From Serinicoccus hydrothermalis (GTDB lineage: Bacteria > Actinomycetota > Actinomycetes > Actinomycetales > Dermatophilaceae): a stretch of DNA of 64,000 nucleotides. Below, piece after piece: positions 1,297 to 62,897 of the stretch. The DNA lies in the NCBI RefSeq assembly GCF_001685415.1, contig NZ_CP014989.1:558001-622000 (forward strand). The letters run 5' to 3'. Position numbers and translations under genes: made by a program. How positions within the stretch are numbered: position 1 is the first letter of the stretch; every line of letters begins with the position of its first letter. The notes below the pieces were generated by a model. It was given only the letters and a program-made list of their open reading frames with translations. It did no database searches and was not told where the DNA came from.

Positions 1297-2360
1297 CCTC
1301 ACCCTCGACCCCCACGCTCGACCCGCACCGCGCCACCTCCGACAGCACCCTGGTGCGGGCCGCCCGGCAGCTCCCCACGACGCACACCCCGGTGTGGTTC
1401 ATGCGGCAGGCGGGACGGTCGCTGCCGGAGTACCGCGAGGTGCGCCGGGACGTGCCCATGCTCACCGCCTGCCGCACGCCGGAGCTGGTCACCGAGATCA
1501 CGCTGCAGCCGGTCCGGCGGCACGGCGTCGACGCGGCGATCTTCTTCAGCGACATCGTCGTGCCGCTCATGGCGGTGGGCGTCGACCTCGACATCGTCGC
1601 CGGCACGGGGCCGGTCATCGCCGAGCCGATCCGCACCCGCGCCGACCTCGACCGCCTGCCGGAGCTGACCCCGGAGCACGTCCCCGACATCGCGGAGTCG
1701 GTGCGGCTGCTCGTCGGCGAGCTGGGGCATACCCCGCTCATCGGGTTCGCCGGCGCCCCCTTCACCCTCGCGTCCTACCTCGTCGAGGGCGGCCCGTCGA
1801 AGAACCACGAGCGCACCAAGGCGCTCATGCACGGCGACCCGCAGCTGTGGAGCGACCTGTGCGCGCGGCTGGCGCAGATCTCGGGCGCGTTCCTGCGGGT
1901 GCAGGCCGAGGCGGGCGCGAGCGCGGTGCAGCTCTTCGACTCCTGGGCGGGGCACCTGTCGCGCGCGGACTACCTGCGCCACGTCGAGCCGCACAGCCGC
2001 ACCGTCCTCGAGGGCGTCGGCGACCTCGGGGTGCCGCGCATCCACTTCGGGGTCGGCACCGGCGAGCTGCTGCCGGCGATGGCCGACGCGGGCGCCGACG
2101 TCATCGGGATCGACTACCGCGTCAGCCTCGCCGACGGCGCGCAGCGGGCCGGCGGGCGGTATGCCGTCCAGGGCAACCTCGACCCCGCCCTCCTCTTCGC
2201 CCCCTGGGAGCCGCTGGCCGCCCGGGTGCGCGAGATCGTCGACGAGGGGCGGGAGGCACCGGGTCACATCTTCAACCTGGGCCACGGCGTGCTGCCGGAC
2301 ACCGATCCCACCGTGCTGACCCGGGTGGTCGAGCTGGTGCACGAGCACTCCGCTCGCTGA
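1293..2360 (+). CDS. hemE: Uroporphyrinogen decarboxylase
   Basis: This cytoplasmic enzyme of haem synthesis removes the four acetate carboxyls of uroporphyrinogen III to give coproporphyrinogen III. The 355-residue length is normal. The N-terminal signature [16 protein letters not shown] carries the substrate-binding arginines, and [13 protein letters not shown] follows near residue 150. Other family blocks include [19 protein letters not shown] and [13 protein letters not shown]. The GTG start at 1293 removes a long non-homologous extension. It lies 6 bases after GACAAT (1281-1286), so it could be made from its own leaderless transcript as well as by coupling to the upstream gene. hemY lies divergently upstream. 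Confidence 0.96.
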
Positions 2361-2361
2361 G

Positions 2362-2450
2362 GGCCACCATTCCGGACGTCCGGTGCGGGTCGCGGCCACC
2401 AGAACGGACGTCCGGTGCGGGTCGCGGCCGCCAGGACGGACGTCCGGTGG
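2362..2450. repeat. Three 32-bp tandem repeats between convergent hemE and rnd
   Basis: Units begin at 2362, 2394 and 2426 (the last is truncated). Each contains the perfect palindrome CGGACGTCCG followed by GTGCGGGTCGC or a variant. The array fills the gap between the hemE stop and the stop of the convergent ribonuclease D gene. It may act as a two-way terminator, but there is no T-tract. Confidence 0.8.
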
Positions 2451-2452
2451 GC

Positions 2453-3712
2453 TCAGGGGTGCGCGGCGAGCGCCTCGACGAGGATCGGGACCACGAGCTC
2501 GCGCTGCCACGGGCGGGCACCGAGCTCGGCGGTCGCGGCGTCGACCGCCTGCGCGTCCCGCTCGTCCGGCGTCCGCCACAGGACGCGCCTGACGACGTCG
2601 GGGGTCATGAGGTTCTCGACCGGGATCTCGAGGCGCTCGGAGAGCTCGGCCAGGCCGGCCCGCACCCGGGTGAGCCGCTCGGCGGCGGCGGGCTCCCGCT
2701 CGGCCCAGGCGCGTGGCGGCGGCGGGGTGTCACCGCGACGGGCGGGCTCGGGTAGCTCCTCCTCGGGCAGCTCGGCGGCGGTCCTGACCGCGGCCAGCCA
2801 AGCCCTCTGGTGGCGCAGCAGCCCCTGCTCGGCCCGTCGCTGCCGGGTCCGCGAGCTCTCCTTGCGGCCCGAGGCCAGCCCCGAGGCCTGCGTCGGCATC
2901 CGGTGCGCGAGGTCGACGAGGGTCCCGTCCGGCAGCACCCGCCCCGGGGGCACGTCGCGCTCCCGGGCGATCTCGTCCCGGGTCTCCCACAGCTCGCGCA
3001 GCGCCGCGAGGGAGCGCGGCTTGCGCACCCGGTGGATGCCGGTGGTGCGCCGCCAGGCGTCCGGGTCCTCGGGCCCGGGAGGGCCGGTGAAGTCGCACAG
3101 CGCGGCGAACTCCTGCTCGGCCCACTCCAGCTTGCCCTGCTCACGCAGGTCCCGCTCCATCCGCTCGCGCAGCTCGACGAGCAGCTCGACGTCGAGCGCC
3201 GCATACCGCAGCCAGGGCTCCGGCAGCGGCCGGGTGGACCAGTCCACCGCCGAGTGCTCCTTGGCGAGCGTGACCCCGAGGTAGTACTCGAGCACCGCCG
3301 ACAGCCCGACCCGGGGGAGCCCGGCCAGGCGCGCGCCCAGCTCGGTGTCGAAGAGCGCCCGTGGGCGCATCCCGACCTCGGCCAGGCACGGTATGTCCTG
3401 GGTCGCCGCGTGGATCACCCACTCGGCCTCGGCGAGCGCGGTGTCGACCCGGGCCAGGTCACCGAAGGGGACCGGGTCGACGAGCCAGGTCCCGGCGCCG
3501 CCGCGCCGCAGCTGGATGAGGTAGGCCTTCTGGCCGTAGCGGTAGCCCGAGGCCCGCTCGGCGTCGACGGCGACCGGGCCCTCGCCCGAGCGGAGCGCGG
3601 AGAGCAGCTCCTCCAGGCCCGCCTCGGTGTCCACGACGACGGGGACGCCACCGGGCGGGGTCTCCAGACGGTCGAAGTCGCTGCTGGGGTCCTCCTCGCT
3701 CACACCGCTCAT
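2453..3712 (-). CDS. rnd: Ribonuclease D-like 3'-5' exonuclease with HRDC domain
   Basis: A 419-residue DEDD-family exonuclease. Exo I motif: VAVDAERASGYRYGQKAYLIQ (about residues 45-65). Exo II motif: WVIHAATQDIPCL. Exo III motif: the LRYAALDVELLVELRE segment. A helical HRDC region (LRELWETRDEIARERDVPPGRVLPD) and a second HRDC-like C-terminal segment follow. RNase D enzymes trim the 3' ends of stable RNAs. The ATG at 3712 starts 2 bp after the stop of the DUF3000 gene, so the pair is probably an operon, an order seen in other actinobacteria. The stop lies next to the tandem repeats behind hemE. Confidence 0.9.
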   Translation of the reverse strand: MSGVSEEDPSSDFDRLETPPGGVPVVVDTEAGLEELLSALRSGEGPVAVDAERASGYRYGQKAYLIQLRRGGAGTWLVDPVPFGDLARVDTALAEAEWVIHAATQDIPCLAEVGMRPRALFDTELGARLAGLPRVGLSAVLEYYLGVTLAKEHSAVDWSTRPLPEPWLRYAALDVELLVELRERMERDLREQGKLEWAEQEFAALCDFTGPPGPEDPDAWRRTTGIHRVRKPRSLAALRELWETRDEIARERDVPPGRVLPDGTLVDLAHRMPTQASGLASGRKESSRTRQRRAEQGLLRHQRAWLAAVRTAAELPEEELPEPARRGDTPPPPRAWAEREPAAAERLTRVRAGLAELSERLEIPVENLMTPDVVRRVLWRTPDERDAQAVDAATAELGARPWQRELVVPILVEALAAHP

Positions 3713-3714
3713 CG

Positions 3715-4466: not shown

Positions 4467-4482
4467 ATCTCATATATGTGAT
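4467..4482. promoter_or_regulatory. AT-rich palindrome upstream of the HTH-MurA gene (candidate operator/promoter)
   Basis: ATCTCATATATGTGAT is a 16-bp palindrome with one mismatched pair, ending 13 bases before the ATG at 4496. It is strikingly AT-rich for this DNA. It lies between the divergent DUF3000 and HTH-MurA genes and could carry the -10 region and a site for the gene's own helix-turn-helix domain. The autoregulation is inferred. Confidence 0.5.
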
Positions 4483-4495
4483 CTACAGTGGCGGG

Positions 4496-6025
4496 ATGAC
4501 CGAGAGCTACCTCTCCCGCATCGGCGGGCTCATCCGTGATGCCCGTCGCCACAAGGACCTCACCCAGGCCGAGCTGGCCGAGCTGCTGAGCACGAGCCAG
4601 AGCGCCGTCGCCCGCATCGAGCAGGGCAAGCAGAACCTCTCCCTGGAGATGATCGCCCGCATCGGCGAGAAGCTGGACTCCGAGATCGTCCAGGTCTCCT
4701 CGGGCATACCCCAGAACCTGCGGATCGAGGGCGGCACCAAGCTGTCCGGCGGCATCGACGTGCGCACCTCCAAGAACGCCGCCGTCGCCCTCCTCTGCGC
4801 CTCCCTGCTCAACAAGGGCCGCACGACGCTGCGCAACCTCGCGCGGATCGAGGAGGTCAACCGCATCACCGAGGTGCTGACGAGCATCGGCTACAAGATC
4901 CGCTGGCTCCCCGACTCCTCCGACCTCGAGATCGTGCCGCCGGAGAAGATCGACCTCGCCTCGATGGACGAGGCGGCGGCACGGCGCACCCGCACGATCA
5001 TCATGTTCCTCGGCCCGCTCATGCACGAGTTCGGCACCTTCGAGCTCCCGTATGCCGGGGGCTGCGACCTCGGCACCCGCACCGTCGAGCCGCACATGAT
5101 CGCGCTGCGCCACTTCGGCCTCGACGTCACCGCGACCACCGGCAGCTACCACGCGACCGTGGACGACGCCGTCTCCCCCGACAAGCCGATCGTGCTCACC
5201 GAGCGCGGCGACACCGTCACCGAGAACGTCCTGCTCGCCGCGGCCCGGCACACCGGCACCACGGTCATCCGCAACGCCAGCTCCAACTACATGGTCCAGG
5301 ACCTGTGCGTCTTCCTGCAGCAGCTCGGCGTGCGGATCGAGGGCCTGGGCACCACCACCCTCACGGTGACCGGCGTCGAGGAGATCGACACCGACATCGA
5401 GTACGCCCCCTCCGAGGACCCCATCGAGGCGATGAGCCTGCTGGCGGCCGCGGTCGTCACCGGCAGCGAGATCACCATCCGCCGGGTGCCGATCGAGTTC
5501 ATGGAGATCGAGCTGGCCGTCCTCGGCACGATGGGTTTCGAGTGCGAGCTGTCGGACGAGTACGCCAGCGCGAACGGGCATACCCGGCTGGTCGACCTCA
5601 CCACCTCCCCCGGCCCGCTCAAGGCGCCGCTGGACAAGATCCACCCGCTGCCCTTCCCCGGGCTCAACATCGACAACCTGCCGTTCTTCGCGATCATCGC
5701 GGCCTGCGCGCAGGGGTCGACGCTCATCCACGACTGGGTCTACGAGAACCGCGCGATCTACCTCACCGAGCTCACCACCCTCGGTGCCAAGGTGCACCTC
5801 ATGGACCCGCACCGGGTGATGATCGAGGGGCCGACGCGGTGGCGCGCCGGCGAGATCATGTGCCCGCCCGCGCTGCGCCCCGGCGTCGTCATCCTGCTGG
5901 CGATGCTCGCGGCGCCCGGCACCTCGGTGCTGCGCAACGTCTACGTCATCAACCGCGGCTACGAGGACCTCGCGACCCGGCTCAACGCCCTCGGCGCGCA
6001 GATCCAGACCTTCCGCGACATCTGA
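4496..6025 (+). CDS. Helix-turn-helix domain fused to a MurA-type enolpyruvyl transferase
   Basis: A 509-residue protein. Residues about 8-65 form an XRE-family helix-turn-helix (DLTQAELAELLSTSQSAVARIEQGKQNLS). The rest is an EPSP-synthase/MurA fold. The MurA Lys-Asn pair is present (SKNAAVALL, K93/N94), as is the loop Cys (YAGGCDLGTR, C190), equivalent to the Cys that MurA uses with PEP. NIDNLPFFAI and PALRPGVVILLAM are further family blocks. It may be an active UDP-GlcNAc enolpyruvyl transferase, or a regulator that senses UDP-GlcNAc through an enzyme fold; the sequence alone does not decide. The ATG at 4496 directly precedes the HTH domain. Confidence 0.85.
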   Translation: MTESYLSRIGGLIRDARRHKDLTQAELAELLSTSQSAVARIEQGKQNLSLEMIARIGEKLDSEIVQVSSGIPQNLRIEGGTKLSGGIDVRTSKNAAVALLCASLLNKGRTTLRNLARIEEVNRITEVLTSIGYKIRWLPDSSDLEIVPPEKIDLASMDEAAARRTRTIIMFLGPLMHEFGTFELPYAGGCDLGTRTVEPHMIALRHFGLDVTATTGSYHATVDDAVSPDKPIVLTERGDTVTENVLLAAARHTGTTVIRNASSNYMVQDLCVFLQQLGVRIEGLGTTTLTVTGVEEIDTDIEYAPSEDPIEAMSLLAAAVVTGSEITIRRVPIEFMEIELAVLGTMGFECELSDEYASANGHTRLVDLTTSPGPLKAPLDKIHPLPFPGLNIDNLPFFAIIAACAQGSTLIHDWVYENRAIYLTELTTLGAKVHLMDPHRVMIEGPTRWRAGEIMCPPALRPGVVILLAMLAAPGTSVLRNVYVINRGYEDLATRLNALGAQIQTFRDI

Positions 6026-7820: not shown

Positions 7821-8609
7821 GTGCGGACGGCATACCTGGACCACCCCGGCCCGATCCCGATGGCCCACCGCGGGTTCGACCGGGAGCGCGTGGGCCTGGA
7901 GAACTCCCTGGCCGCCTTCCAGGCGGCTGTCGACCTCGGCTACCGCTACGTCGAGACCGACGTGCACGCGACGCGGGACGGCGTGGTCGTGGCCTTCCAC
8001 GACGAGACCCTGGACCGGGTCACCGACCGGCGCGGCGCGATCCCCGAGCTGTCCTGGCGGGAGGTGTCCCGGGCCAGGATCGGCGGGCAGGAGCCGGTCC
8101 CGCGTCTCGAGGAGCTGCTGGCGAGCTTCCCCGACCTGCGGGTCAACATCGACATCAAGACCCCGGGTGCGATCGTGCCGCTGGTGCGCGTCATCGAGCG
8201 CGCCCGCGCCCACGAGCGGGTCTGCGTGACCAGCTTCTCCGACCAGCGCCGGGACGCGGCCGTCATGCGGCTGACCCGGCCGGTGGCCACCTCGGCGGGG
8301 CAGCGCAGCACCGCCTCGTTCCGGGCCGCCGCCGAGCTCCCGCCGCTCATCCGGGCCTCGGTCGCCGCGCGGGCCCTGCGCTCGGTCGACGCGCTGCAGG
8401 TGCCGCCGCAGCACCACGGCATCGAGGTGGTGACCCCCAAGGCGCTCGCAGCGGCGCACGAGATCGGCAAGTCCGTGCACGTCTGGACGATCGACGACCC
8501 GGTCGAGATGCATCGCCTGCTCGACCTCGGTGTCGACGGGATCATGACCGACCGGGCCGACGTCCTCAAGGACGTGCTCACCCAGCGCGGCCAGTGGGTC
8601 GCGGCCTGA
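7821..8609 (+). CDS. Glycerophosphodiester phosphodiesterase
   Basis: 262 residues of the GDPD TIM-barrel family, which splits glycerophosphodiesters into glycerol-3-phosphate and an alcohol. Visible catalytic elements: AHRGF (His14/Arg15 region), ENSLAAF, the ETDVHATRDG metal-binding strand and VVAFHDETLDRVT with the second catalytic His. NIDIKTPG and SVHVWTIDDP are later family blocks. There is no signal peptide, so it is probably cytoplasmic. The GTG at 7821 lies 6 bases after TAGGCT (7809-7814), another leaderless start. The next gene, cysJ, converges on it. Confidence 0.92.
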   Translation: MRTAYLDHPGPIPMAHRGFDRERVGLENSLAAFQAAVDLGYRYVETDVHATRDGVVVAFHDETLDRVTDRRGAIPELSWREVSRARIGGQEPVPRLEELLASFPDLRVNIDIKTPGAIVPLVRVIERARAHERVCVTSFSDQRRDAAVMRLTRPVATSAGQRSTASFRAAAELPPLIRASVAARALRSVDALQVPPQHHGIEVVTPKALAAAHEIGKSVHVWTIDDPVEMHRLLDLGVDGIMTDRADVLKDVLTQRGQWVAA

Positions 8610-10621: not shown

Positions 10622-11362
10622 TCAGCCCTGCTCCACGTGCAGGCCGCACTCCCGGACGAGCCCGAAGAAGCGGGTGCTCTCCTCGCTGAGCTCGTCCGTG
10701 GCCCGGCGCGTCGTGTGCGTGTCGCCGATGCTCAGGTAGCCCTCGTGGAAGAGCGGGTGGTAGGGCAGGTCGTGCTCGGTGAGGTAGCGGTGCACGTCGC
10801 GGCTGCTCCAGTCGACGATGGGGTGCACCTTGGCCCGGCCGTTCTGCAGCTCGACCACCTCGCGGTCGGCCCGGCCGTCGGACTGCTCGCGGCGCAGCCC
10901 GCTGAACCACGTGCTGATCCCGAGATCCGTCATGGCCCGCTGCATCGGCTCGACCTTGTTCATGCGGTTGTACTCGGTGATGCCGTCCACGCCCTGCTCC
11001 CAGAGCCGGCCGAACCTCGCCTCCTGCCACGCTGCGGACATCTCGGGGCGGTAGACGTGCAGGTTGAGTCCCAGCCGCTCGGTCAGCTCGTCCACGAAGC
11101 GGTAGGTCTCCGGGAAGAGGTAACCGGTGTCGAAGAGTAGGACCGGGATGTCCGGGACCGCACGCGTCACCAGGTGCAGCATGACGGCGGACTGGACCCC
11201 GAAGCTTGAGGTGACGGCATACCCACCGGGCAGACGCTCCATCGCCCAGGCGACGCGCTCCTGCGCGCTGCGCCCGTCGAGCCACGCGCTCGCCGCGCCC
11301 AGGTCGTGCGGCATGAGCGGGGTCGGGGTGCAGCAGTCGTCGTTCCTGGCCAGAGCCGTCAT
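10622..11362 (-). CDS. cysH: Phosphoadenylyl-sulfate (PAPS) reductase
   Basis: 246 residues. PP-loop-type ATP-pyrophosphatase fold: [14 protein letters not shown] about residue 50, [11 protein letters not shown], and [10 protein letters not shown]. The reductase-typical ECGLHVEQG sits at the very C-terminus and carries the catalytic Cys. The CC...CxxC cluster cysteines of APS reductases are not seen in the core. This favours a PAPS-type, thioredoxin-dependent enzyme, although kinases are outside the window. The ATG at 11362 has GAGAGGACG just upstream. It lies between cysI and cysJ. Confidence 0.88.
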
Positions 11363-11381: not shown

Positions 11382-13097
11382 TCATGCATGGAAGTCGGTG
11401 CGGGAGATCTTGACCTCGGCCACGACCCCGGTGCGGATGAGGAAGTCGCCGAAGCCCTCGCCCTCCTCGCGCCCGGAGACCCACAACCCGATGAGGTGGT
11501 CGAGCTCCTCGAGGATGACCTCGGGGCTGACGTTCTCGCGGTAGAGCTTGGGCACCCGGGTCCCGATCCGGTCGCCCCCGAGGTGCAGGTTGTACTTCCC
11601 CGGGCCCTTGCCGACGAGGCCGACCTCGGCGAGCATCGCCCGGGAGCACCCGTTGGGGCAGCCGGACACCCGGAGCACGATGTGGTCATCGGGTATGCCG
11701 TGGCCCGCCAGGAGCTGCTCCACCTGCTCGACGAAGCCGGGCAGGAAGCGCTCGGACTCGGCCATCGCCAGCGGGCAGGTGGGGAAGGACACGCACGCCA
11801 TCGAGTTGCGCAGCTGCGGCGTCGTCGTGTCGTCGACGAGGCCGTGCTCGCGGGCGAGCCGGTCGATGACCCGCTTCTGCCGCGGGGGGACGCCGGCGAT
11901 GACGAGGTTCTGGTTCGCGGTGAGCCGGAAGTCGCCCTGGTGGACCTCGGCGATCTTGCGCAGGCCGGTCTTGATCGGCGCCTCGGGCCGGTCCTTGATC
12001 CGGCCGTTGAGGATGAAGACCGTGAGGTGCCAGTTGCCGTCGTGGCCCTTGACCCAGCCGAAGCGGTCGCCGCGAGAGGTGAACTCGTAGGGCCGGGAGG
12101 GCTCGAAGGTGACGCCGGCGCGGCGCTCCACCTCGGCCTTGAAGACGTCGGTGCCGACCCGGTCCAGGGTGTACTTCGTCTTGGCGTTCTTGCGGTCGAC
12201 CCGGTTGCCCCAGTCCCGCTGCACGGTGACGACGTGCTCGGCGACGGCGAGGGTGTGCTCCAGGGGGACGAAGCCGAAGTCGTCGGCCCGGCGCGGGTAG
12301 GTCGCGGTGTCGCCGTGGGTCATCGCCAGGCCGCCGCCGACGAGGACGTTCCACCCCACGAGCTCGCCGTCCTCGACGATCCCCACGAAGTTGAGGTCGT
12401 TGGCGTGCACGTCGACCTCGTTGTTGGGCGGCAGCGAGACCGTGGTCTTGAACTTGCGGGGCAGGTAGGTGCTGCCCAGGATCGGCTCCTGCGTGCTCTT
12501 GGCCTTCTCGCCGTCGAGGAAGATCTCGACGTAGGCCCGGGTCCGCGGCAGCAGGTGCTCGCTGATCCGGGTGGACCACTCGTAGACCTCGGCGTGCAGC
12601 TGGGACTCCAGCGGGTTGCTGGTGCAGAGCACGTTGCGGTTGACGTCGCCGGCGGTCGCGATGGAGTCGATGCCCGCGGCGTTGATCGCCTGGTGGGTGT
12701 CCTTGATGTCCGGCTTGAGCACCCCGTGGTACTGGAACGTCTGCCGGGTCGTGAGCCGCACCGAGCCGTACATCGTGTGCTGCTCGGCCCAGTCCTCGAC
12801 GACGAGCCACTGCTCGGGGGTGATGACGCCGCCGGGCATCCGCGCGCGGAGCATGACGTTGATGAGCGGCTCGAGCTTCTGCTGGGAGCGCTCGGAGCGC
12901 AGGTCGCGGTCGTCCTGCTGGTACATCCCGTGGAAGCGGATGAGCTGGAAGTTGTCCGGCCCGAAGCCCCCGGTGATCTGGTCGCGCAGGTCCTCCTCGA
13001 TCGTCCCGCGCAGGAAGTTGCTCTCGCGCTTGAGACGCTCGTTGTCGGACAACGGCCCGTCGACGATCAGCGGGGCGTCCTGCTGGCTCTGCGTCAT
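11382..13097 (-). CDS. cysI: Sulfite reductase haemoprotein beta subunit (CysI)
   Basis: 571 residues, the usual length. Duplicated siroheme-binding halves are visible. Cluster cysteines are in the C-terminal half: [13 protein letters not shown] (CxxxxxC) and [14 protein letters not shown] (CxxxC), which ligate the 4Fe-4S centre bridged to siroheme. The [12 protein letters not shown] segment supplies the substrate/siroheme arginines. It reduces sulfite to sulfide with electrons from CysJ. The ATG at 13097 has an AC-GGAAAG purine stretch upstream and is preceded by a 13-codon leader ORF and hairpin. The gene heads the operon cysI-cysH-cysJ. Confidence 0.95.
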
Positions 13098-13313: not shown

Positions 13314-15383
<2,070 letters not shown>

Positions 15384-15700: not shown

Positions 15701-15837
15701 CACGGGCGCCCCGATGGTGCCCGTGGCTCGCGACCGCGAGGGACGGTCTGGGGCTGGACGCGGCATACCCGCGACCCCCTCGCCTCCCCTGCGTGACCCG
15801 AGCGCGTCGCAGCAGTCGAGTTCACGAGGGGTGAACG

Positions 15838-23394: not shown

Positions 23395-24339
23395 ATGTCC
23401 GACAGCACCTTCGTCCTGTCCACCCCCGACGGCAGCCAGGTCCACCTCACCACGTGGCTGCCCGAGGGCGCGCCTCGCGCCGTCGTCCTCGTCGCGCACG
23501 GCATGGTCGAGCACGCCGCGCGCTACGAGCACCTCGCGCGGCGCCTCCTCGACCACGGGTATGCCGTCTACGCGCCCGACCACCGGGGGCACGGGCATAC
23601 CGTCAGCGGGCGGGGCGAGCGCGGGCTGCTCGGGCACATGGCGGACCAGGACGGCTTCGCCTCGGTCGTCGACGACCTGCTGGCGCTCACCGACCGGATC
23701 GAGGCCGACCTGCCTGGCGTGCCCGTCGTGCTGCTGGGGCACAGCATGGGCTCGTTCCTGGCCCGCGCCTACGCCGCGCGCTACGGCGACCGGCTCGCGG
23801 CGCTGATCCTGTCCGGCACCGCCGGCGCCCCGGGGGTGCTGGCGAACCTCGGCCTCGGCGTCGCCTCGCTCGAGGCGCGACTGCGCGGGCCGCGGGCCCC
23901 GAGCCACCTCATGACGACGCTGACGATGGGGCCCTACAACGCGCGCTTCCGCCCCAACCGGACCCGCTCCGACTGGCTCTCACGGGACACGGCGCAGGTC
24001 GACGCCTACGAGGCCGACCCGCTGTCCGGCGCGACCGCCAGCGCGGGCTTCTACCGCGACCTACTCACCGGGCTGCGCTGGGTGAGCCAGCGCTCGGTCG
24101 CCGCGCAGATGCCGAAGGAGCTGCCGGTGCACCTCGTCGCGGGCGAGGTCGACCCCGTGGGCGGAGAGGCCGGGACCGAGGAGGTCGCCGCACTGTTCCG
24201 CGACGTGGGCATGCAGGACGTCACGACGCGGATCTGGCCCGGCGCCCGCCACGAGGTGCTGCAGGAGGTCAACCGCGACGAGGTCGAGACCGAGCTCCTC
24301 GCCTGGCTCGACGCCCACGTCCCCACCTCCACCCCCTGA
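23395..24339 (+). CDS. Monoacylglycerol lipase-like alpha/beta hydrolase
   Basis: 314 residues. The oxyanion region is VAHGMVEHAARYE. YAPDHRGHGHT is typical of the Hydrolase_4/lysophospholipase group. The nucleophile elbow is GHSMGSF (Ser about residue 121). The late acidic residue is in VHLVAGEVDPVGG and the catalytic His in WPGARHEVLQE. No signal peptide. It likely releases fatty acids from mono- or lysoglycerolipids in the cytoplasm. The ATG at 23395 sits 6 bases after GATCAT, a leaderless arrangement. The polysaccharide genes around it run in other directions, so it looks inserted among them. Confidence 0.9.
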   Translation: MSDSTFVLSTPDGSQVHLTTWLPEGAPRAVVLVAHGMVEHAARYEHLARRLLDHGYAVYAPDHRGHGHTVSGRGERGLLGHMADQDGFASVVDDLLALTDRIEADLPGVPVVLLGHSMGSFLARAYAARYGDRLAALILSGTAGAPGVLANLGLGVASLEARLRGPRAPSHLMTTLTMGPYNARFRPNRTRSDWLSRDTAQVDAYEADPLSGATASAGFYRDLLTGLRWVSQRSVAAQMPKELPVHLVAGEVDPVGGEAGTEEVAALFRDVGMQDVTTRIWPGARHEVLQEVNRDEVETELLAWLDAHVPTSTP

Positions 24340-50846: not shown

Positions 50847-51903
50847 GACGAGGACCGCCGCCACCGACGCGCCGACGCAGGCCTCCGGGCATACCTCCGG
50901 GGAAAGGCGCACCGGACCCTTCGTGCGCGGCCGCGACCGGGTCCGGTATGCCGTGATCATGGCCGTGCTGGTGGTCCTTGCCGTGGGCTTCACCGCCGGG
51001 ATCCTCGCCTACGGCAACCCGATGCCGGTGGGCAGCGACGGCTTCTGGCGGATCGCCGAGCTGCGCGTCACGAGCATCGCGGTCATCCTCGTCGTCGCCT
51101 TCTGCCACGCCTTCGCCACGGTGAGCTTCCAGACCGCGACGAGCAACCGCATCATCACCCCCTCGATCATGGGTTTCGAGACGCTCTACGTCGTCGTGCA
51201 GACCGGCGCGGTCTTCGTCTTCGGCGCCTCGGGCGTCGCGATGGTCACCGGCACGACGCAGTTCCTGCTCCAGGCCGCGCTCATGGTCGTCCTGGCCACG
51301 ATCCTCTACGGCTGGCTGCTCTCGGGGCGCTTCGGCAACATCCACGTCATGCTGCTCGTCGGGGTCATCCTCGGTGGCGGCCTGGGCGCGCTGTCGACCT
51401 TCATGCAGCGGCTGCTCACCCCGAGCGAGTTCGACATCCTCACGGCCCGGCTCTTCGGCAACATCGGCAACGCCGACGCGGACTACCTGCCCTACGCCGT
51501 CCCGATCGCGCTCGCCGCCGGGGGCACGCTGTTCTGGCGGGCCCGGCGGCTCGACGTGCTCGCCCTCGGGCGGGACGCGACGACCAACCTCGGGCTGAAC
51601 CACAAGCGCGAGGTCATCGTCGTGCTCTTCCTCGTCTCCCTGCTCATGGCGATGACCACCTCGCTGGTCGGGCCGATGACCTTCCTCGGCTTCCTCGTCG
51701 CCATGCTCGCCTACCAGTTCGCCGACACCTACAGCCACCGGCTGCTGCTGCCCATGGCCTTCCTCCTGGGGTATGTCGTGCTGTCCGGGGCCTACTTCGT
51801 GCTGCGGCACGTCTTCTACGCGCAGGGCATGGTCACCATCATCATCGAGCTCATCGGTGGGCTGACCTTCCTCGTCTACATCATGCGAAAGGGCCGCCTG
51901 TGA
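50839..51903 (+). CDS. FecCD-family siderophore permease, subunit 2
   Basis: 354 residues, about 9 helices after a 30-residue polar N-terminus. RVTSIAVILVVAFCHAFATVSFQTATSNRI is the first FecCD block, and LVGPMTFLGFLVAMLAYQFAD is the ATPase-contact loop. It resembles the CeuC/YclO partner of subunit 1, so the channel is a heterodimer. It overlaps both neighbours (8 bp and GTGA), indicating translational coupling. Confidence 0.9.
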   Translation: MPETRTAATDAPTQASGHTSGERRTGPFVRGRDRVRYAVIMAVLVVLAVGFTAGILAYGNPMPVGSDGFWRIAELRVTSIAVILVVAFCHAFATVSFQTATSNRIITPSIMGFETLYVVVQTGAVFVFGASGVAMVTGTTQFLLQAALMVVLATILYGWLLSGRFGNIHVMLLVGVILGGGLGALSTFMQRLLTPSEFDILTARLFGNIGNADADYLPYAVPIALAAGGTLFWRARRLDVLALGRDATTNLGLNHKREVIVVLFLVSLLMAMTTSLVGPMTFLGFLVAMLAYQFADTYSHRLLLPMAFLLGYVVLSGAYFVLRHVFYAQGMVTIIIELIGGLTFLVYIMRKGRL

Positions 51904-52655: not shown

Positions 52656-52679
52656 CTCCGGGTATGCCCAGATGCCGCC

Positions 52680-53105: not shown

Positions 53106-53947
53106 CGCAGCCCGCTGCGGGAGAAGCCCTGGACGAACCAGCGCTGGGCCAGCAGGAAGACGAGCACCATGGGCGCCACCGTGATGAGCGCGAAGGCCAT
53201 CGTCGCGCCGAAGTCGGGCCCGAACTGCCCCTGCAGGAAGAGCAGCCCGACGGGCAGCGTGTAGAGCGCGTTCTCCCGCAGCGCGATGAGCGGCCAGGCG
53301 AAGTCGTTCCACGTCTGCAGCATGCTCATGAAGAAGAGCACCGCGATGAGCGGACGCGAGAGCGGCAGCACGATCCGCCAGAAGATCTGCAGGTGGGAGG
53401 CCCCGTCGATGCGGGCCGCCTCGATGAGCTCGCGCGGGATGGTGAGGATGAACTGCCGGGCGAGGAAGACCCCGAAGGCCGAGGCCGCGGTCGGCAGGAT
53501 CACCGCCCAGTAGCTGCCGTAGAGCCCGAGGTCGGTGACGAGCCGGAACAGCCCGACCATGATGACCTGCACCGGCAGCATGAGCGTGGACAGCGCCACG
53601 AGCAGCAGCACCCCGGAGCCGGGGAAGCGCAGGTGGGCGAAGGCATACCCGGCCAGGAGGTTGACCAGCACGATGATGACCGAGGTCACCAGGGCGATCG
53701 CCAGCGAGTTGCCGAACCACGTGAGCACCGGGAAGGAGTCGAAGACGCGCCGGAAGTTGTCCAGCGTCGTCTGCTCCGGCCAGAGCCGGAAGCCCCCTCC
53801 GGAGAGCGAGGACCGGCTCGAGAAGGCGACGACCGCCATCCAGTAGAGCGGGAAGAGGATGACCACCGCGGCCAGCAGCACTCCTGCGAGGCGCAGTGCC
53901 GCGCCCGTGCGACGCCGTGTGGCAGGACCCTGCGGATAACTGTTCAC
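53102..53947 (-). CDS. Carbohydrate ABC transporter permease, MalG type
   Basis: 281 residues, six helices. The ATPase-contact EAA loop is [27 protein letters not shown] (about residues 180-206). The N-terminus [18 protein letters not shown] is typical of CUT1-family MalG-like subunits. It pairs with the MalF-type subunit in a GTGA overlap. The family usually shares an MsiK-type ATPase, which would explain why no ATPase gene is here. Confidence 0.9.
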
Positions 53948-54819
53948 TCCGTCTCCTCCCGCCGCCGCTCGGCGCGCCAGCGCAGGCCGGTGACGACCAG
54001 CGTGACGGCCAGGAGCACCACGCCGATGGCCGCGGCATACCCCTGGTCGCGGGTGACGAAACCGGTGTCGTAGGCGTAGGTGACGAGCACCGTGGTGGCC
54101 CGCTCCGGCCCGCCGCCGGTCATGACGAAGACGATGTCGAAGACCTGGAAGGAGTAGATGATGTTGAGGATGACGAGGAAGAACGACTGCGGCTTGAGCT
54201 GGGGCACCGTGACGTGGAGCAGCCGCTGCCAGGAGTTGGCGCCGTCGAGCCGCGCCGCCTCGTGCAGCTCGTGCGAGATCCCCTGCAGCCCGGCCAGGTA
54301 GATGAGCATGTTGAAGCCCACCCGCCACCACAGCGTCATGATGACGACGGAGGCGAACGCCGCCGGCCCGTGCGTCTGCCAGTCGATCTGGGGCAGCCCC
54401 AGGACCCGGGCGGCCTCGGTGAGGAAGCCGCTGTTCTCGTCGAAGATCAGCACCCCCATGAGCGCCGTCGCGACCCCCGAGATCGCCATGGGCAGGATGA
54501 GCACCGAGCGCAGCAGCCCTCGCGCCGGGAGCGCCGAGTTCAGCAGCAGCGCCAGGCCCAGCCCGATGGCCATCGCCGCCGGGGTGACCAGCACCGTGTA
54601 GAGCGCGGTGTTGACCGTGGCACGCCAGAAGACCGGGTCCTGCACGAGGCGCCGGTAGTTGTCCAGGCCGACGAAGGTGCCCTCGCCGAAGCCGTTGGTC
54701 TCCTGCAGGCTGATGGCCATCGCGCCGCCGAGGGGCAGCAGCACGAAGACCCCGAGCAGGAGCAGGGTCGGCGCGGCGAAGGAGTAGCCCGCCAGCGCCT
54801 CACGAGCGCGCGCCGTCAC
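53944..54819 (-). CDS. Carbohydrate ABC transporter permease, MalF type
   Basis: 291 residues, six helices. [26 protein letters not shown] is the typical first extracytoplasmic block. The EAA loop is [27 protein letters not shown]. It forms the channel with the MalG-type subunit. GTG start 54819 in a GTGA overlap with the binding-protein gene. Confidence 0.9.
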
Positions 54820-57648: not shown

Positions 57649-57711
57649 GCTCTCCTCCTCGGTATGCCGGGGAAGAGTCCCGGGGCCGGCGCCAGATACG
57701 TGCCGGTCCCC

Positions 57712-58626
57712 TCAGGTCGTCGGCGCCGCCACCCGCAGGCCCCCGGGCCGGATCTCGACCCGTGCGGACACGCAGCCGGGCAGCACGTCGCCGTCGACCT
57801 GCACCGGCCCCGGTGCGCCCAGCCGGAGCACGGCGACCCGCCCCTGCCGGTAGCGCAGCGCCGGGTGCTCCCGGTGCGGCGCCCCCAGCCCGGTCGCCGC
57901 GACCCGCCCCCAGTCCGCGAGCCGGCGCGGCCCGACGACCGCGACGTGGAGCAGGCCGTCGTCCATCCGCGCCCCCGGCACCAGCCGCGCGCCGAGCGGC
58001 AGCCGGCCGCCGTTGACGGCCAGGACGCTCCACGCCGGCTCCTCCTGCTCGGCGGCGTCGTCGACCCGCAGGCCCACCGGCCGCCCCGGACGGCGCAGCC
58101 GGCTCAGCCCCGGGGTCACATAGGCCAGCCACCCCAGCCTCCGCTTCGCCTCGGGGATCATCGTCGCGAGCACCTCGGCGTCCTGGCCGACGCCGACCAC
58201 CACGAGGAAGGGCAGGCTGGTCGATGACCCGTCCTCGTGCGAGGCCTCCACCCGGCCCAGGTCCACCCGGCGCCCCGGCCCGGCGACGGCCAGCCGGGCG
58301 GCCGCGGTCGTGCTCCGCAGCGGCAGCCCGAGGTTGCGGGCGGCGAGGTTGGCGGTGCCGCACGGCACGACCCCCAGGACCGCGCGGTCGCCGACGGCAC
58401 CGGCCACCTCGCGCAGCGTCCCGTCTCCCCCGGCGACGACGACGCGGGTGCAGCCCAGCGCCAGCAGCTCCCGCGCCTGGGCGGCCCCGGGCTCGGCGAC
58501 GGTGGTGGAGCGGATCTCGGGCGGGGGCATACCGGCCTCGGCGCAGGCGATGACCACCTCGCGCCGGGCGCGCTGCGCGCCGCGCGACGCGGGGTTGAGG
58601 ACGAGCGCGACCGGGTCCACGGCCAC
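57712..58626 (-). CDS. Diacylglycerol/lipid kinase family protein
   Basis: 304 residues. The ALVLNPASRG start and the GGDGTLREVAGAV nucleotide motif (about residues 67-79) define the DAGK catalytic family, with VVPCGTANLAARNLGLP following. A C-terminal beta-sandwich holds AVNGGRLPLGARLVPGARMDDG. It probably phosphorylates diacylglycerol or a related lipid alcohol; the App1-like phosphatase two genes downstream would reverse this. GTG start 58626 follows the dxs stop by 10 bp. Confidence 0.88.
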   Translation of the reverse strand: MAVDPVALVLNPASRGAQRARREVVIACAEAGMPPPEIRSTTVAEPGAAQARELLALGCTRVVVAGGDGTLREVAGAVGDRAVLGVVPCGTANLAARNLGLPLRSTTAAARLAVAGPGRRVDLGRVEASHEDGSSTSLPFLVVVGVGQDAEVLATMIPEAKRRLGWLAYVTPGLSRLRRPGRPVGLRVDDAAEQEEPAWSVLAVNGGRLPLGARLVPGARMDDGLLHVAVVGPRRLADWGRVAATGLGAPHREHPALRYRQGRVAVLRLGAPGPVQVDGDVLPGCVSARVEIRPGGLRVAAPTT

Positions 58627-58636
58627 GTCCGTCGGC

Positions 58637-60520
58637 TCAGCCGAGCCTGGCGGACAGCGAGGTCGCCACCGCGTCCGGCGTCAGGCCGATGCGGTCGAGC
58701 ACCTGCTCGCGGGACCCGTGGTCGAGGAACTCCTGGGGTATGCCGTAGCCGTGCACCGGCACGTCGACCTCGGCCGCCGCGAGCGTCTGCGAGACCGCGC
58801 TGGCGATCCCGCCACCGACGATGTTGTCCTCGATGACGGCCACGCGGCCCGCGCCGCGGGCGAGGTCGACGAGGTCCGGGCTCACCGGCAGCACCCAGCG
58901 CGGGTCGACGACCATGACGCGGCGCCCCTCGGCCCGCAGCTTGTCGGCCACCTCCAGCGCGGTCCCGGCCATGGATCCCACGCCCACGAGGAGCAGCTCG
59001 AGGTCGCTCTCCGGGCCGTCCTGGTCGTCGAGGTCGCGGAGCACGTCGAGCGTGCCGACCTGGCGGACGGCCTCGATCGGGGCGCCGGCGCTGCCCTTGG
59101 GGAAGCGCACCACGCTGGGGCCGTCATCGATGTCGACCGACTCACGCAGCGCGAGCGCCACCTGCTGGCCGTCGCGCGGGGCGGCGACCCGGATCCCGGG
59201 GACGATCCCAGTCAGGGTGAGATCCCACATACCGTTGTGGCTGGCGCCGTCGGTGCCGGTGATCCCGGCGCGGTCGAGCACGAAGGTGACGCCCTGGCGG
59301 TGCAGCGCGCAGTCCATGAGCAGCTGGTCGAAGGCGCGGTTGAGGAAGGTGGCGTAGACGCAGACCACCGGGTGCATGCCGGTGAAGGACAGGCCGGAAG
59401 CCATTGCCACGGCGTGCTGCTCGGCGATGCCGACGTCGAAGACCCGCTCCGGGTAGCGCTCGGCGAAGGGCTGCAGGCCGACCGGGATGAGCATGGCGGC
59501 GGTGAGGGCCACGATGTCGTCGCGCTCCCGGCCCAGCCGCACCAGCTCGTCGCTGAACTCGTCGGTCCAGGAGCGCCCGGACACCTCCAGCGGCAGACCG
59601 GTCTCGGGGTTGATCTTGCCGACGGCGTGGAAGCGGTCGACCTCGTCGGCGGTCGCCGGGTCGTAGCCGTGGCCCTTCTCGGTGATCGCGTGGACGAGCA
59701 CCACGCCGCCGAAGTCGTGGGCGCGGCGCAGCGCGGTCTCCATCGCCTCGACGTCGTGCCCGTCGACCGGGCCGAGGTACTTCAGCCCCAGGTCCTCGAA
59801 CATGCCCTGCGGGCTGACGATGTCCTTGAGCCCCTTCTTCACGCCGTGCAGCGCCTCGTAGACCTGGCGCCCCACCACCGGCGTGCGGGACAGCTGCCGC
59901 TTGCCCCAGGACAGCATGTGCTCGTACTCCTGGGTGGCCCGCAGCGAGGCGAGGTACTCCGCCATGCCGCCGCGGGTGGGGGCGTACGAGCGCTCGTTGT
60001 CGTTGATGACGATGATGAGCGGCAGGTCCGGCTGGTCGGCGATGTTGTTGAGCGCCTCCCACACCATGCCGCCGGTGAGCGCTCCGTCGCCGATGACCGC
60101 GACGGTGTGCCGGTCGGTCTCGCCACGCAGCTTGCGGCCGGTGGCGATGCCGATGGCCCAGGACAGCGAGGAGCTGGCGTGCGAGTTCTCCACGACGTCG
60201 TGGTCGGACTCGGCCCGGCTCGGGTAGCCCGAGAGCCCGCCCTGCTTGCGCAGCGTGGACAGGTCGTGCCGGCCGGTCAGCAGCTTGTGGACGTAGGAGA
60301 TGTGCCCGGTGTCGAAGAGCAGGGTGTCGCGGGGGGAGTCGAAGACCCGGTGCAGCGCGATGGTCAGCTCGACGACGCCGAGGTTGGGGCCGAGGTGGCC
60401 ACCGGTCTGCGAGACCGAGGAGATGAGGTAGGCCCGGATCTCCTCCGCGAGGGCGCTCACCTGACCCTGCGTCAACCCTTTGAGGTCGGACGGCCCGGTG
60501 ATGGTGCGCATCAGTGCCAC
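58637..60520 (-). CDS. dxs: 1-deoxy-D-xylulose-5-phosphate synthase
   Basis: 627 residues, normal length. Catalytic His region [16 protein letters not shown], thiamine-diphosphate motif [17 protein letters not shown] (GDG...N), [16 protein letters not shown] and [15 protein letters not shown]. It condenses pyruvate and glyceraldehyde-3-phosphate, the first step of the MEP isoprenoid pathway. The GTG at 60520 is 7 bases after CGGAGG; TAGACT about 40 bases upstream is a likely -10. Product isoprenoids feed the polyprenyl carriers used by the glycan genes in this window. Confidence 0.96.
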
Positions 60521-60667: not shown

Positions 60668-61045
60668 ATGAGTGAGCAGCAGGGTCCGAGGGTCATCGGC
60701 GTCTACAACGCCAAGGGAGGCGTCCTGGGCGAGGCGGCCTACGTGTGGGGCAAGGCCCGCGGCAGCTCGCACTGCTCGCTGTGCGACATCACCCACGCCA
60801 CGGTGCGGCGCAAGAAGGAGTGGGAGCAGATGGTGGCCGGTCTCGAGCTGCGGCACCTCAACGAGCTCACGCCCACGCAGGAGGCCGCGGTCGAGGAGGC
60901 CGGCGCCCCGGTGGTCCTCGCCGAGGGCGAGGGCGGCGGGCATACCGTGCTGCTGAGCCGTGCCGACCTCGACGAGCTCGGGGGCGACGTCACGCGCTTC
61001 GAGCAGGCCCTGCGCCGGCGCCTTGCGGACCACACCGGCACCTGA
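60668..61045 (+). CDS. Hypothetical protein with HC-x2-C-x3-H motif (paralogue 1)
   Basis: 125 residues. RVIGVYNAKGGVLGEAAYVWGK begins the fold. SSHCSLCDITHATVRRKKEWEQM carries the motif HCxxCxxxH (about residues 35-43), a possible metal or redox site. It ends LDELGGDVTRFEQALRRRL. The next gene on the strand is a diverged copy. The ATG at 60668 lies 6 bases after GACGCT. I know similar short bacterial proteins with a C-x-x-C-x-x-T-H/Y core, but no function for them. Confidence 0.7.
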   Translation: MSEQQGPRVIGVYNAKGGVLGEAAYVWGKARGSSHCSLCDITHATVRRKKEWEQMVAGLELRHLNELTPTQEAAVEEAGAPVVLAEGEGGGHTVLLSRADLDELGGDVTRFEQALRRRLADHTGT

Positions 61046-61166
61046 GGTATGCCGGCTGCCAGCCGGTTCGTCCTCTGAGCGCCGGTTCGTCACCGGTGAG
61101 CCTGTTCGAGGGGGCTCTCACATGACGAAGAGGCTGCCAGTCGGGCTGACGCCCTACGCTGAGGCG

Positions 61167-61586: not shown

Positions 61587-61589
61587 GGG

Positions 61590-61949
61590 TCAGGCGATCG
61601 GGGCGCGCAGGCGCAGCGCCTCGAGCAGCAGGCCGGCGGCCCGGTGGTTGGCGCGCAGCCGCAGACCCTCGCGGGCCAGGGACTCCAGGACGTCGCCGAT
61701 GGTTCCGGGCGGCAGCGCCGGGCCGAGCTCGGGACGGACGTCGCGCCAGGCTCCGCGCATGGCCTCGAGCTGGGCCTCCAGGTGGCGGGTCGCCATCCAG
61801 GCGAGCGCGGCCGGGTGCCGGCGCCAGGCGGCATACGCCCGGTAGTCGGCCGGGCACTGGTCGAGCAGCCAGGAGACCGCGGCCTGCTCCCAGCCGGCGA
61901 CCCCGGCCGGGGGGACCCGATCGGGCCATCCGGGCGGTCCGCTGCTCAT
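61590..61949 (-). CDS. Hypothetical helical protein
   Basis: 119 residues, mostly alpha-helical (WEQAAVSWLLDQCPADYRAYAAWRRHP, HLEAQLEAMRGAWRDVRPELG). It resembles short actinobacterial proteins of unknown function. The ATG at 61949 has TACACT 7 bases upstream on the minus strand, in line with leaderless neighbours. It converges on the paralogue gene with a 3-bp gap. No functional call. Confidence 0.62.
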   Translation of the reverse strand: MSSGPPGWPDRVPPAGVAGWEQAAVSWLLDQCPADYRAYAAWRRHPAALAWMATRHLEAQLEAMRGAWRDVRPELGPALPPGTIGDVLESLAREGLRLRANHRAAGLLLEALRLRAPIA

Positions 61950-62057
61950 GCGAACAAGTGTACGACGACCTGCCCACGCCCCGCTGCTCGCCATCCGCAG
62001 CACGCCTCCTCTATTATGAGCACGCAGATCTTCGCTATTTCGACGAACGGGACCACC

Positions 62058-62897
62058 ATGACCAGCGCCGCCCCCGCCGCCCTGCAGCGGAGCCGTCAGC
62101 TCCACCCGCTCCACGTCCGCCGCGCCGGCGTCAGCCACGTCGAGCAGCTCGGCGGGCGGATGCGGCGCATCACGCTCGGGCTCGAGGCCGGCGCGCCGCC
62201 GATCCCCTGGGTGCCGCTGGCCGTCGGCGACCACGTCAAGGTCGCCTTCCCGCACCCGACCACCGGCGAGCTCACGCTCCCGACCGTCGTCGACGACCGG
62301 CCCAGCCTCCCCGAGGGCGCGCAGCGCCCGGTGACCCGCGACTACACCGTGCGCGGGGTCCACGACGCGGACCAGACCCAGCAGGTCACGATCGACTTCG
62401 TCGTGCACGGCACCGGCCCGGCGAGCACCTGGGCGAGCGGCGCCAGGAAGGGCGACGTCGTCGGCCTGCTCGGCCCGCGCGGGTCGATGACCGAGCCGGC
62501 CGACGCGCGGCGCTACGTCTGCCTGGCCGACGAGACCGCCCTGCCCGCCGTCGGACGCTGGCTCGAGGAGGCTCCCGCCGGCATACCCCTGGAGGTCGTG
62601 GTCCAGGTCCCGGACGCGACCTGCCTGGTGCCCCTGCCCCAGCGCGCGGACGCCCGCGTCACCTGGCTCATGGACGAGGAGGAGGGCACGCTCGCCGAGT
62701 CGCTGCGGTCCCTGCCCCCAGAGCCGGGCGACTACGTGTGGGCCGCGGGCGAGGCCGGCGCGATGGTCCAGGTGCGCCGTGCGGCCGCCGAGCTCGGCGT
62801 CGGTGGGGAAGCCCTGCAGCCCAGCGCGCTGCAGGTGGACGGCTACTGGCGGCGCGGCGTCGCCGGACGCGACCACCACGAGCCGCTGGAGAGCTGA
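62058..62897 (+). CDS. Siderophore-interacting protein (ViuB/SIP-type ferric reductase)
   Basis: 279 residues. FAD-binding half with the flavin motif RDYTVR (RxYT/S) and the GPASTWASGARKGDVVGLLGPRG block. The SIP C-terminal half ends with AAGEAGAMVQVRRAAAELGV and DGYWRRG, the SIP hallmarks. It reduces ferric siderophore in the cytoplasm to free iron, likely serving the importer at 48.7-52.7 kb. The ATG at 62058 follows GAACGGGACC; an in-frame ATG at 62016 would add 14 atypical residues. TATTAT at 62012-62017 is a possible -10. No convincing iron box seen. Confidence 0.9.
   Translation: MTSAAPAALQRSRQLHPLHVRRAGVSHVEQLGGRMRRITLGLEAGAPPIPWVPLAVGDHVKVAFPHPTTGELTLPTVVDDRPSLPEGAQRPVTRDYTVRGVHDADQTQQVTIDFVVHGTGPASTWASGARKGDVVGLLGPRGSMTEPADARRYVCLADETALPAVGRWLEEAPAGIPLEVVVQVPDATCLVPLPQRADARVTWLMDEEEGTLAESLRSLPPEPGDYVWAAGEAGAMVQVRRAAAELGVGGEALQPSALQVDGYWRRGVAGRDHHEPLES

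Follow-up and report, generated by a model that had tools for sequence, protein, structure and literature searches.

An abundant eight-base word in Serinicoccus and its relatives is a candidate DNA-uptake signal with lineage-specific dialects

The window analysed here, a stretch of 64,000 nucleotides at 558-622 kb of the chromosome of Serinicoccus hydrothermalis (G000; one contig of 3,597,394 bases, NCBI order Micrococcales), holds a series of predicted open reading frames (ORFs) through which one eight-base word, GGTATGCC, is scattered. Two genes bear out a Serinicoccus-like organism: dxs shares 92% identity with S. chungangensis, and the cysI DNA shares 88% with that species and 92% with two further genomes of the genus. 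An exact match count gives exactly 42 copies, 19 forward and 23 reverse, each at the place where the initial annotation, made by eye, had located it. That annotation had expected roughly 2 copies by chance, and the excess is borne out by 100 dinucleotide shuffles of the window, with a mean of 0.63 copies and a maximum of 3; a maximal-order model is uninformative (42 seen against 44 expected) since the model itself already holds much of the word. Five of the 42 copies lie outside predicted ORFs, and the flanking sequences are unrelated to one another, which rules out a local repeat family. The proposed codon readings (Gly-Ile-Pro via ATA, Gly-His-Thr and others) stand at every named site except 50888, which falls outside an ORF as called. 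Judging from its genomic anatomy, GGTATGCC is probably the Serinicoccus dialect of a family-wide candidate DNA-uptake signal, one that would work like the uptake sequences of Neisseriaceae and Pasteurellaceae without being the Neisserial DNA uptake sequence (DUS), given its different sequence and the missing receptor type.

The enrichment is not a property of the window. Over the whole chromosome there are 2,180 copies (1,065 forward and 1,115 reverse, one per 1.65 kb), against 11 (4 forward and 7 reverse) of the reversed word, so that the loss of enrichment outside the window that would have spoken against a selected word did not occur. Finer counts were made in a 464-kb sample of the same chromosome, drawn from 21 places, with genes predicted by our own gene caller. 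There GGTATGCC, with 303 copies, heads the list of all 8-mers under an order-3 model, which expects 16, and comes third under an order-4 model, which expects 151 but already contains most of the word. Within predicted coding sequences 250 copies stand against a mean of 16 in within-gene synonymous shuffles (maximum 26 of 100 shuffles) and a mean of 9 in pooled across-gene shuffles (maximum 17 of 100), a z of ∼78. The copies are divided over the six frame-and-strand classes as 87, 58, 45, 35, 23 and 2, the class of 2 being Val-Cys; five of six classes thus hold the word in quantity, as the earlier remark on different frames had it, and the coding strand carries 112 copies, its complement 138. 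The density inside predicted genes (250 in 414 kb) is exceeded 1.74-fold by that outside them, straddling copies included (53 in 50 kb, p=6e-4). Proteins too are bent by the word. The tripeptides Gly-Ile-Pro, Gly-Met-Pro and Gly-Tyr-Ala occur at 2.9, 2.4 and 2.0 times the frequency expected from composition, the controls Gly-Leu-Pro, Gly-Val-Pro and Gly-Phe-Ala at 1.0-1.2 times and Gly-His-Ala at 0.8 times, and of the 71 ATA codons that these genes use, 45 belong to a copy of the word.

Mismatched forms are enriched mainly at the edges. At position 1 every other base is in excess (C 60 vs. 9, T 48 vs. 2, A 20 vs. 2), the changes tolerated at positions 7 and 8 are enriched less than those at position 1, and changes within the inner GTATG reach at most ∼1.7-fold, except in words expected less than once. 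A palindrome one base away, GGCATGCC, is depleted (12 vs. 49 expected, order-2 model), perhaps through restriction avoidance. Word density did not vary in a consistent way with codon typicality, taken as a stand-in for foreign origin (0.61, 0.75, 0.80, 0.45 and 0.45 words per kb from the least to the most typical fifth of genes), and a low-density stretch (L020, 4 words in 20 kb) bore no sign of an island by eye, annotation not having been run on it.

Comparison with seven relatives, at 84-87% identity over the window, revealed that word sites turn over and yet are held. The word was kept exactly in 128 of 230 site-genome pairs, the corresponding figures being 30 of 98 for the remaining SSTATSSS-type 8-mers on either strand and 1,526 of 4,249 for 8-mers with two weak bases there; the pairs are not independent since the relatives share history. 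Turnover runs both ways: in the relative G021, 20 of 30 aligned window sites were kept, and 7 of its own 27 aligned sites are absent from the window. Where only one of two compared genomes has a site, the difference amounts in several cases to two or more bases. Taken together, the synonymous shuffles, the spread over nearly all reading frames, the intergenic excess and the retention of sites support selection or drive acting on the word at the DNA level, as originally proposed.

The strands are balanced in both halves of the chromosome. With halves assigned from GC skew in the 464-kb sample and not by direct mapping of origin and terminus, the two orientations number 71/80 and 77/75; there is no polarity, and a 75% strand bias is excluded (p below 1e-8). 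Orientation nevertheless leaves a mark on spacing. Within 1 kb the sample has 53 same-strand and 126 opposite-strand pairs, where permutation of orientations predicts 88 same-strand pairs (standard deviation 6.3) and none of 2,000 permutations was as low as 53; within 100 bp the same-strand pairs number 0 vs. 10 expected and the opposite-strand pairs 11 vs. 10. The same-strand share of GGTATGCC is 0.30, compared with 0.38-0.75 among 51 other 8-mers with 250-350 copies. Samples of other genomes, with the dialects introduced below, deviate from permutation in the same direction and mostly weakly: 25 vs. 36 for GGATGCCG (p=0.002), 48 vs. 58 for CGAAGGGG (p=0.02), 42 vs. 50 for GTACGCCG (p=0.05), 46 vs. 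53 for GTATGCCG (p=0.08), 7 vs. 11 in the relative G026 (p=0.07) and 8 vs. 9 for GTAGCGGC (p=0.46). We read this repulsion as the trace of an oriented signal for which a single copy per kilobase on each strand gives the full effect. Transcription terminators would be at most a side use: in the 464-kb sample 9 of 282 neighbour intervals are shorter than 60 bp, all 9 are inverted, the two copies pair in the minimum-energy fold in 6 of them, and 3 lie wholly between predicted genes.

Table 1. Copies of GGTATGCC in the 64-kb window (position 1 is the first letter of the window; ORF strands in brackets)
Copy	Position	Strand	Setting	Reading or pairing
1	1726..1733	-	ORF 1293-2360(+)	Gly-His-Thr
2	2158..2165	+	ORF 1293-2360(+)	Arg-Tyr-Ala
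3	4703..4710	-	ORF 4478-6025(+)	Gly-Ile-Pro via ATA
4	5577..5584	-	ORF 4478-6025(+)	Gly-His-Thr
5	7829..7836	-	ORF 7821-8609(+)	
6	11216..11223	-	ORF 10622-11314(-)	
7	11692..11699	+	cysI-like ORF 11382-13097(-)	Gly-Ile-Pro via ATA
8	13615..13622	-	NAD synthase-like ORF 13314-15383(-)	
9	15762..15769	-	outside predicted ORFs	
10	16331..16338	+	ribonucleotide reductase alpha-like ORF 15838-18444(+)	
11	16991..16998	+	ribonucleotide reductase alpha-like ORF 15838-18444(+)	
12	21852..21859	-	ORF 19917-21932(-)	
13	23558..23565	+	ORF 23395-24339(+)	inverted pair with copy 14
14	23594..23601	-	ORF 23395-24339(+)	inverted pair with copy 13
15	24992..24999	+	ORF 24513-26891(-)	
16	25414..25421	+	ORF 24513-26891(-)	Gly-Ile-Pro via ATA
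17	28373..28380	+	ORF 27800-28867(+)	Gly-Met-Pro
18	28576..28583	-	ORF 27800-28867(+)	
19	29276..29283	-	ORF 28877-30040(-)	
20	29794..29801	+	ORF 28877-30040(-)	
21	31179..31186	+	ORF 30015-32360(-)	
22	32010..32017	-	ORF 30015-32360(-)	
23	33334..33341	+	ORF 32393-34168(-)	
24	33956..33963	-	ORF 32393-34168(-)	
25	34396..34403	+	ORF 34209-35426(+)	
26	35326..35333	-	ORF 34209-35426(+)	Gly-His-Thr
27	36573..36580	+	ORF 36034-37230(-)	
28	37389..37396	-	ORF 37227-38225(-)	
29	39410..39417	+	ORF 39357-39971(-)	
30	40263..40270	-	ORF 40024-40692(+)	
31	45065..45072	-	ORF 44480-45985(+)	Gly-Ile-Pro via ATA
32	50888..50895	-	outside ORF as called	inverted pair with copy 33
33	50945..50952	+	ORF 50923-51903(+)	inverted pair with copy 32
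34	52661..52668	+	outside predicted ORFs	
35	53642..53649	-	ORF 53102-53881(-)	
36	54034..54041	-	ORF 53944-54819(-)	
37	57661..57668	+	outside predicted ORFs	
38	58526..58533	-	ORF 57712-58626(-)	
39	58737..58744	+	dxs ORF 58637-60511(-)	Gly-Ile-Pro via ATA
40	60939..60946	-	ORF 60668-61045(+)	Gly-His-Thr
41	61046..61053	+	outside predicted ORFs	
42	62580..62587	-	ORF 62016-62897(+)	Gly-Ile-Pro via ATA

The word is a trait of the family, which we take to be GTDB Dermatophilaceae. We counted GGTATGCC in 196 genomes including G000, 118 of the family and 78 of 19 other families: it is abundant in most of the genus of the window and in many genera of the family, and the 78 outside genomes hold 1-123 copies (reversed control 0-132). 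The GTATGCC core was counted in 79 family genomes, selected for their relative completeness; its reversed control is unclean because CCGTATG is part of the C dialect described below. The core reaches 661-4,856 copies in 46 of these genomes and 19-350 in the other 33. Examples of the former are S. chungangensis (1,887), two Ornithinimicrobium (1,113 and 1,771), two Terrabacter (2,455 and 2,414), Terracoccus (2,350) and Arsenicicoccus (1,513, reversed control 764), and of the latter Marihabitans (88), Janibacter massiliensis (30) and Mobilicoccus (87). A different word was found in 15 of the core-poor genomes, leaving 18 classed as having none or as undetermined, a class in which G085 was unsampled, no more than 16-20 kb of G036 and G066 were covered, and identical counts served to match G078 and G090 to the Janibacter and Mobilicoccus loci.

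Dialects were read from samples of 20 to 80 kb per genome, and in genomes lacking the core other words were sought by synonymous shuffle and intergenic counts. Next to the Serinicoccus form GGTATGCC there is an Ornithinimicrobium form AGTATGCCG (A at 12 of 21 core sites) and a form CGTATGCCG shared by Terrabacter and Terracoccus (C at 23 of 32 core sites) and by Arsenicicoccus (5 of 8). In one genome, G045 (L152, L153), the word extends to a 12-mer, CGTATGCCGCTG, with agreement at 15-17 of 18 core sites at each added position. Among the core-poor genomes GGATGCCG is in excess in G056 and G046 together (69 vs. 11 in coding sequences, 37 vs. 1.5 outside genes), and GTACGCCG in G053 (25 vs. 4.9), in G070 (43 vs. 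8.7; 62 vs. 16 when pooled with G106) and in G077 with G109 (56 vs. 12.5; G109 alone only 20 vs. 5.5). G054 carries GTACGCC[CG] (GGCGTACG 19 vs. 6.5, outside genes 16 vs. 0.75), G098 GTACGGCG (44 vs. 14, outside genes 12 vs. 0.9) and G050 GTATGCGG (6 vs. 0.6, in 20 kb only), and within the genus of the window itself G022 uses GTAGCGGC (52 vs. 10, outside genes 14 vs. 1.2). The form CGAAGGGG was found in G067, G103, G068 and Marihabitans (G067 with G103: 52 vs. 9, outside genes 28 vs. 1.3). It is the one dialect counted over all 79 genomes, the remaining ones being known from samples: G067 has 3,180 copies, G068 2,201, G103 2,589, G104 1,813 and Marihabitans 2,925, compared with 84-386 in the other 74, and the GTATGCC core reaches only 19-88 in these five.

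These calls should be read against the background of the method. In fifteen loci from Streptomyces, Kitasatospora and Cellulomonas the top words attain z values as high as 7.5, and codon-pair words in the family genomes, such as CGAGCAGC, reach z 10.7 at ∼3-fold excess; the dialect calls therefore lean on fold excess and on excess outside genes. Taken singly the words of G050, G098 and G109 are weakly supported, CGATG[CG]GG in G086 and GTACGCCG in G106 were too weak and are left uncounted, and all of these small-sample or 3- to 4-fold words could be artefacts. The words share one register, [GC][TG]A[TCA]G[CG][CG][GC], which GTAGCGGC fits only with a shift and in which position 6 of G033 also accepts other bases, and the dialects follow lineages around fixed positions (no tree was built). 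A separate word, GAGCGGGC in g48 (L202, L203, L210, L211), is in excess only outside genes (20 vs. 1.6 expected, at chance inside them); it may be terminator-like or regulatory.

A foreign island is recognisable by its dialect. In Marihabitans, C1:327,652-349,350 (21.7 kb, L180/L181) has 0 copies of the native CGAAGGGG and 9 of GTATGCCG, with 31 copies of CGAAGGGG in 18.3 kb on both sides. Its GC content is 0.65 compared with about 0.72 around it, and its proteins include type I restriction domains (EcoEI_R_C, HsdM), a TniB-like ATPase and a sub-threshold integrase match. The island is foreign and keeps the word of another dialect group.

The initial annotation had weighed uptake-, Chi- and packaging-type signals and placed the balanced strands nearer to uptake sequences than to Chi or the FtsK-orienting polar sequences (KOPS). 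Our results favor the same choice: the uptake type is supported as the best fit because there is no strand polarity in either half of the chromosome and because the dialects are lineage-specific. A phage packaging signal, we infer, would not spread through so many chromosomes.

Could these bacteria read such a signal? ComEC was found in 78 of the 79 family genomes, the single miss having 760 contigs, and G000 has a locus with a ComEA bearing SLBB and helix-hairpin-helix domains and a ComEC bearing Competence and lactamase-type domains. Type IV pili are disfavoured as the reader, their markers being near absent: PilM exceeds its cut-off in 4 of 79 genomes (full length only in G055), the prepilin peptidase N-domain occurs in 2 of 79 (G055 and G035, the former thus having both markers), and G000 has neither PilM over the cut-off nor the peptidase N-domain. 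A Tad-type ATPase, on the other hand, exceeds the family cut-off in 71 of 79. With a protein from a tad cluster of G012 as query, a second class of Tad ATPase has a match at E<=1e-60 in 70 of 79; eight of the nine genomes without a match belong to the class of 18 and one is word-rich (G067). For the association with the word Fisher's test gives p=1.3e-5 by genome and 9e-5 by genus, or 5e-4 by genus if that of G067 is counted as lacking the ATPase, all without correction for phylogeny. Micrococcus luteus, which we take to belong to the same order as the organism of the window, offers a comparison. Its transformation needs two tad loci, and other type IV pilus genes are apparently absent (PMC4322843).

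We propose that the uptake machine would here consist of Tad (Flp) pili, ComEA and ComEC rather than type IV pili, and that, through a putative reader, it would bind or pull in word-bearing DNA better than other DNA. Imported homologous fragments would replace resident alleles, chance copies of the word near the recombination tract would be favoured, and the word would accumulate wherever the protein sequence tolerates it, as a molecular drive. Drive, and not a direct benefit, would then presumably maintain the word, and where the reader protein shifted its preference the whole genome would drift to a new word, giving rise to dialects.

Several observations weigh against an uptake signal. The near-universal ComEC fails to separate word-rich from wordless genomes, and is rejected as the switch. 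The known receptor type, a type IV minor pilin, is not available in the family, since the type IV pilus markers searched (PilM and prepilin peptidase; not ComP itself) are nearly absent. A loose Tad ATPase match (E<=0.001) is found in 79 of 79 family genomes, and also in 13 of 14 control genomes, and is thus unspecific. The second Tad ATPase is retained by 10 of the 18 genomes classed as wordless or undetermined, and G067, with its 3,180 copies of CGAAGGGG, has no match, unlike G103 of its genus. In five word-rich genomes (G021, G025, G037, G047, G051) it exists only as fragments, one with an internal stop; counting these as lacking it gives p=0.002, and because they keep their words the tad link may be indirect. 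With a looser retention control (all 8-mers with three A/T, kept at 0.40-0.51) the excess of the word is smaller, and retention is unclear in two of the seven relatives (0.42 vs. 0.44 in G028, 0.46 vs. 0.44 in G029). Repulsion between copies on one strand hints at a role of orientation, whereas the uptake of DNA by H. influenzae is described as orientation-independent (PMC1939737). Finally, no uptake or transformation experiment for these species was found in the open-licence literature searched. Nor was an actinobacterial DNA uptake sequence found reported there among the matches listed, in keeping with the earlier remark that no such word was known to be described in actinobacteria, and those listed for the bare word appeared unrelated by title.

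Among the alternatives, the one that survives best is a binding site of a chromosome-organising or cell-cycle protein, such as a nucleoid protein or a KOPS-like translocase guide. The spread of the word through the sampled chromosome and its variation by lineage would both suit such a site, which we nonetheless regard as unlikely: the lack of polarity toward the terminus (halves by GC skew) disfavours KOPS, turnover in both directions and replacement between genera would be unusual for sites of this kind, and repulsion limited to the same strand is not expected of a packing site.

Still less credit is due to a recombination signal of the Chi kind, with RecBCD or some other helicase-nuclease as its reader. 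The word is short, non-palindromic and abundant, and RecC is present in all 21 searched genomes of the genus of the window, G000 included. The strand bias of Chi in E. coli is 75%, a value excluded by the balanced halves reported above. RecC itself, found in 44 of 79 genomes, does not follow the word: it occurs in 25 of 46 core-rich genomes (and is thus absent from 21), in 9 of 15 with another word and in 10 of the 18 wordless or undetermined. This pattern, together with the lack of a replication-linked orientation bias, disfavours RecBCD-Chi; the counts bear on RecBCD and not on AdnAB or AddAB.

That the word is the self mark of a modification-dependent defence system, in which it would be methylated, protected or required, appears very unlikely. 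Type I, III, ISP and BREX specificities typically involve asymmetric words that differ by lineage, and the inverted neighbours resemble the sites of two-site enzymes. We know of no restriction-type target with so strong an enrichment in the genome that bears it, however, and restriction specificities turn over quickly, whereas this word persists over many genera. More improbable again is a mutational or repair bias of the kind of very short patch repair, which would act on both strands and in all frames: an 8-base target tolerant mainly at its edges is longer than the repair biases known to us, several one-genome-only sites differ at two or more bases, and spacing by strand is not expected. 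A codon, dicodon or amino-acid usage artefact is refuted for the GTATGCC, GGATGCCG and CGAAGGGG words, and scarcely conceivable overall. High-GC codon bias does make many 8-mers common, as our background shows (z up to 7.5 in the control genera, and 10.7 for codon-pair words such as CGAGCAGC), but the 250 copies vs. 9-16 in shuffles at z ∼78, the five of six frame classes well filled and the higher density outside genes all speak against it.

A bolder form of the uptake reading, to which we give slightly less than an even chance on these genomic patterns, is that Gram-positive actinobacteria have independently evolved an oriented uptake language. It would be read on one strand by a Tad/Flp- or ComEA-linked protein with a reach of ∼1 kb, and its at least six dialects (GGTATGCC, [AC]GTATGCCG, GTACGCCG, GGATGCCG, CGAAGGGG and GTAGCGGC) would hinder mating across genera and show where islands came from. 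To our knowledge, abundant self-recognition uptake words have been described in no more than two families, both proteobacterial and both equipped with type IV pili. If the uptake reading is true, such words would have arisen a third time and separately, in actinobacteria with Tad-type machinery, and comparison could serve to test how uptake words evolve. One could then ask how a receptor evolves jointly with thousands of sites, which of drive and benefit maintains those sites and whether dialects keep species apart. The uptake reading would also allow a forecast of which of these little-studied actinobacteria are transformable, and with what DNA.

One side observation concerns a gene of the window. 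The product of ORF 46032-47669 has the likeness of a Na+/H+ antiporter-type transporter family; its score with the Tet(35) model (252 of 750 bits) is far under the cut-off, and therefore no resistance claim is made.

How does the word compare with known systems? As with the DUS of Neisseriaceae, there are thousands of copies, and dialects differ around fixed positions and follow lineages (PMC3630211); five genomes of that family are described there as being without any DUS-type word. Neisserial genomes carry roughly one DUS per 400-1100 bp and contain islands recognised, as here, by the wrong dialect (PMC7371117), and DUS likewise lack orientation bias and are in excess in non-coding DNA (PMC1939737). 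The differences are that the sequence is unrelated, the word lacking the Neisserial 10-mer consensus with its CTG core (PMC3630211), that the host belongs to the Actinomycetota, where a ComP-type receptor (a type IV minor pilin) is not available and type IV markers are near absent, and that same-strand copies here repel one another within about 1 kb.

With the uptake signal sequence (USS) of Pasteurellaceae the word shares its density class, balanced strands, non-coding excess and enriched mismatched forms (PMC1939737), as well as a preponderance of one orientation within reading frames (PMC2346458), the counts here being 112 for the coding strand and 138 for its complement. Sequence and machinery differ, and the 42 copies of the window have no A/T-rich flank. 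In H. influenzae even spacing of USS is reported alongside orientation-independent uptake (PMC1939737); strand-specific spacing would thus set the present word apart, as the avoidance of close pairs is here limited to same-strand copies.

The octamer HIP1 of cyanobacteria is likewise highly repeated and spread through coding DNA; it is a palindrome, whereas GGTATGCC is non-palindromic and strand-specific in its spacing. The term 'uptake sequence' does not occur in PMC4322843 or PMC8467076. Flp/Tad transformation of M. luteus is similar in machinery, being that of an actinobacterium with ComEA/ComEC, two tad loci and apparently no other type IV pilus genes (PMC4322843). In sum, the word departs from Neisserial DUS in receptor and consensus, from RecBCD-Chi in RecC and orientation bias, and from KOPS in polarity; with uptake sequences it has in common dispersed excess copies, no orientation bias, an excess in non-coding DNA, lineage dialects and the presence of competence machinery.

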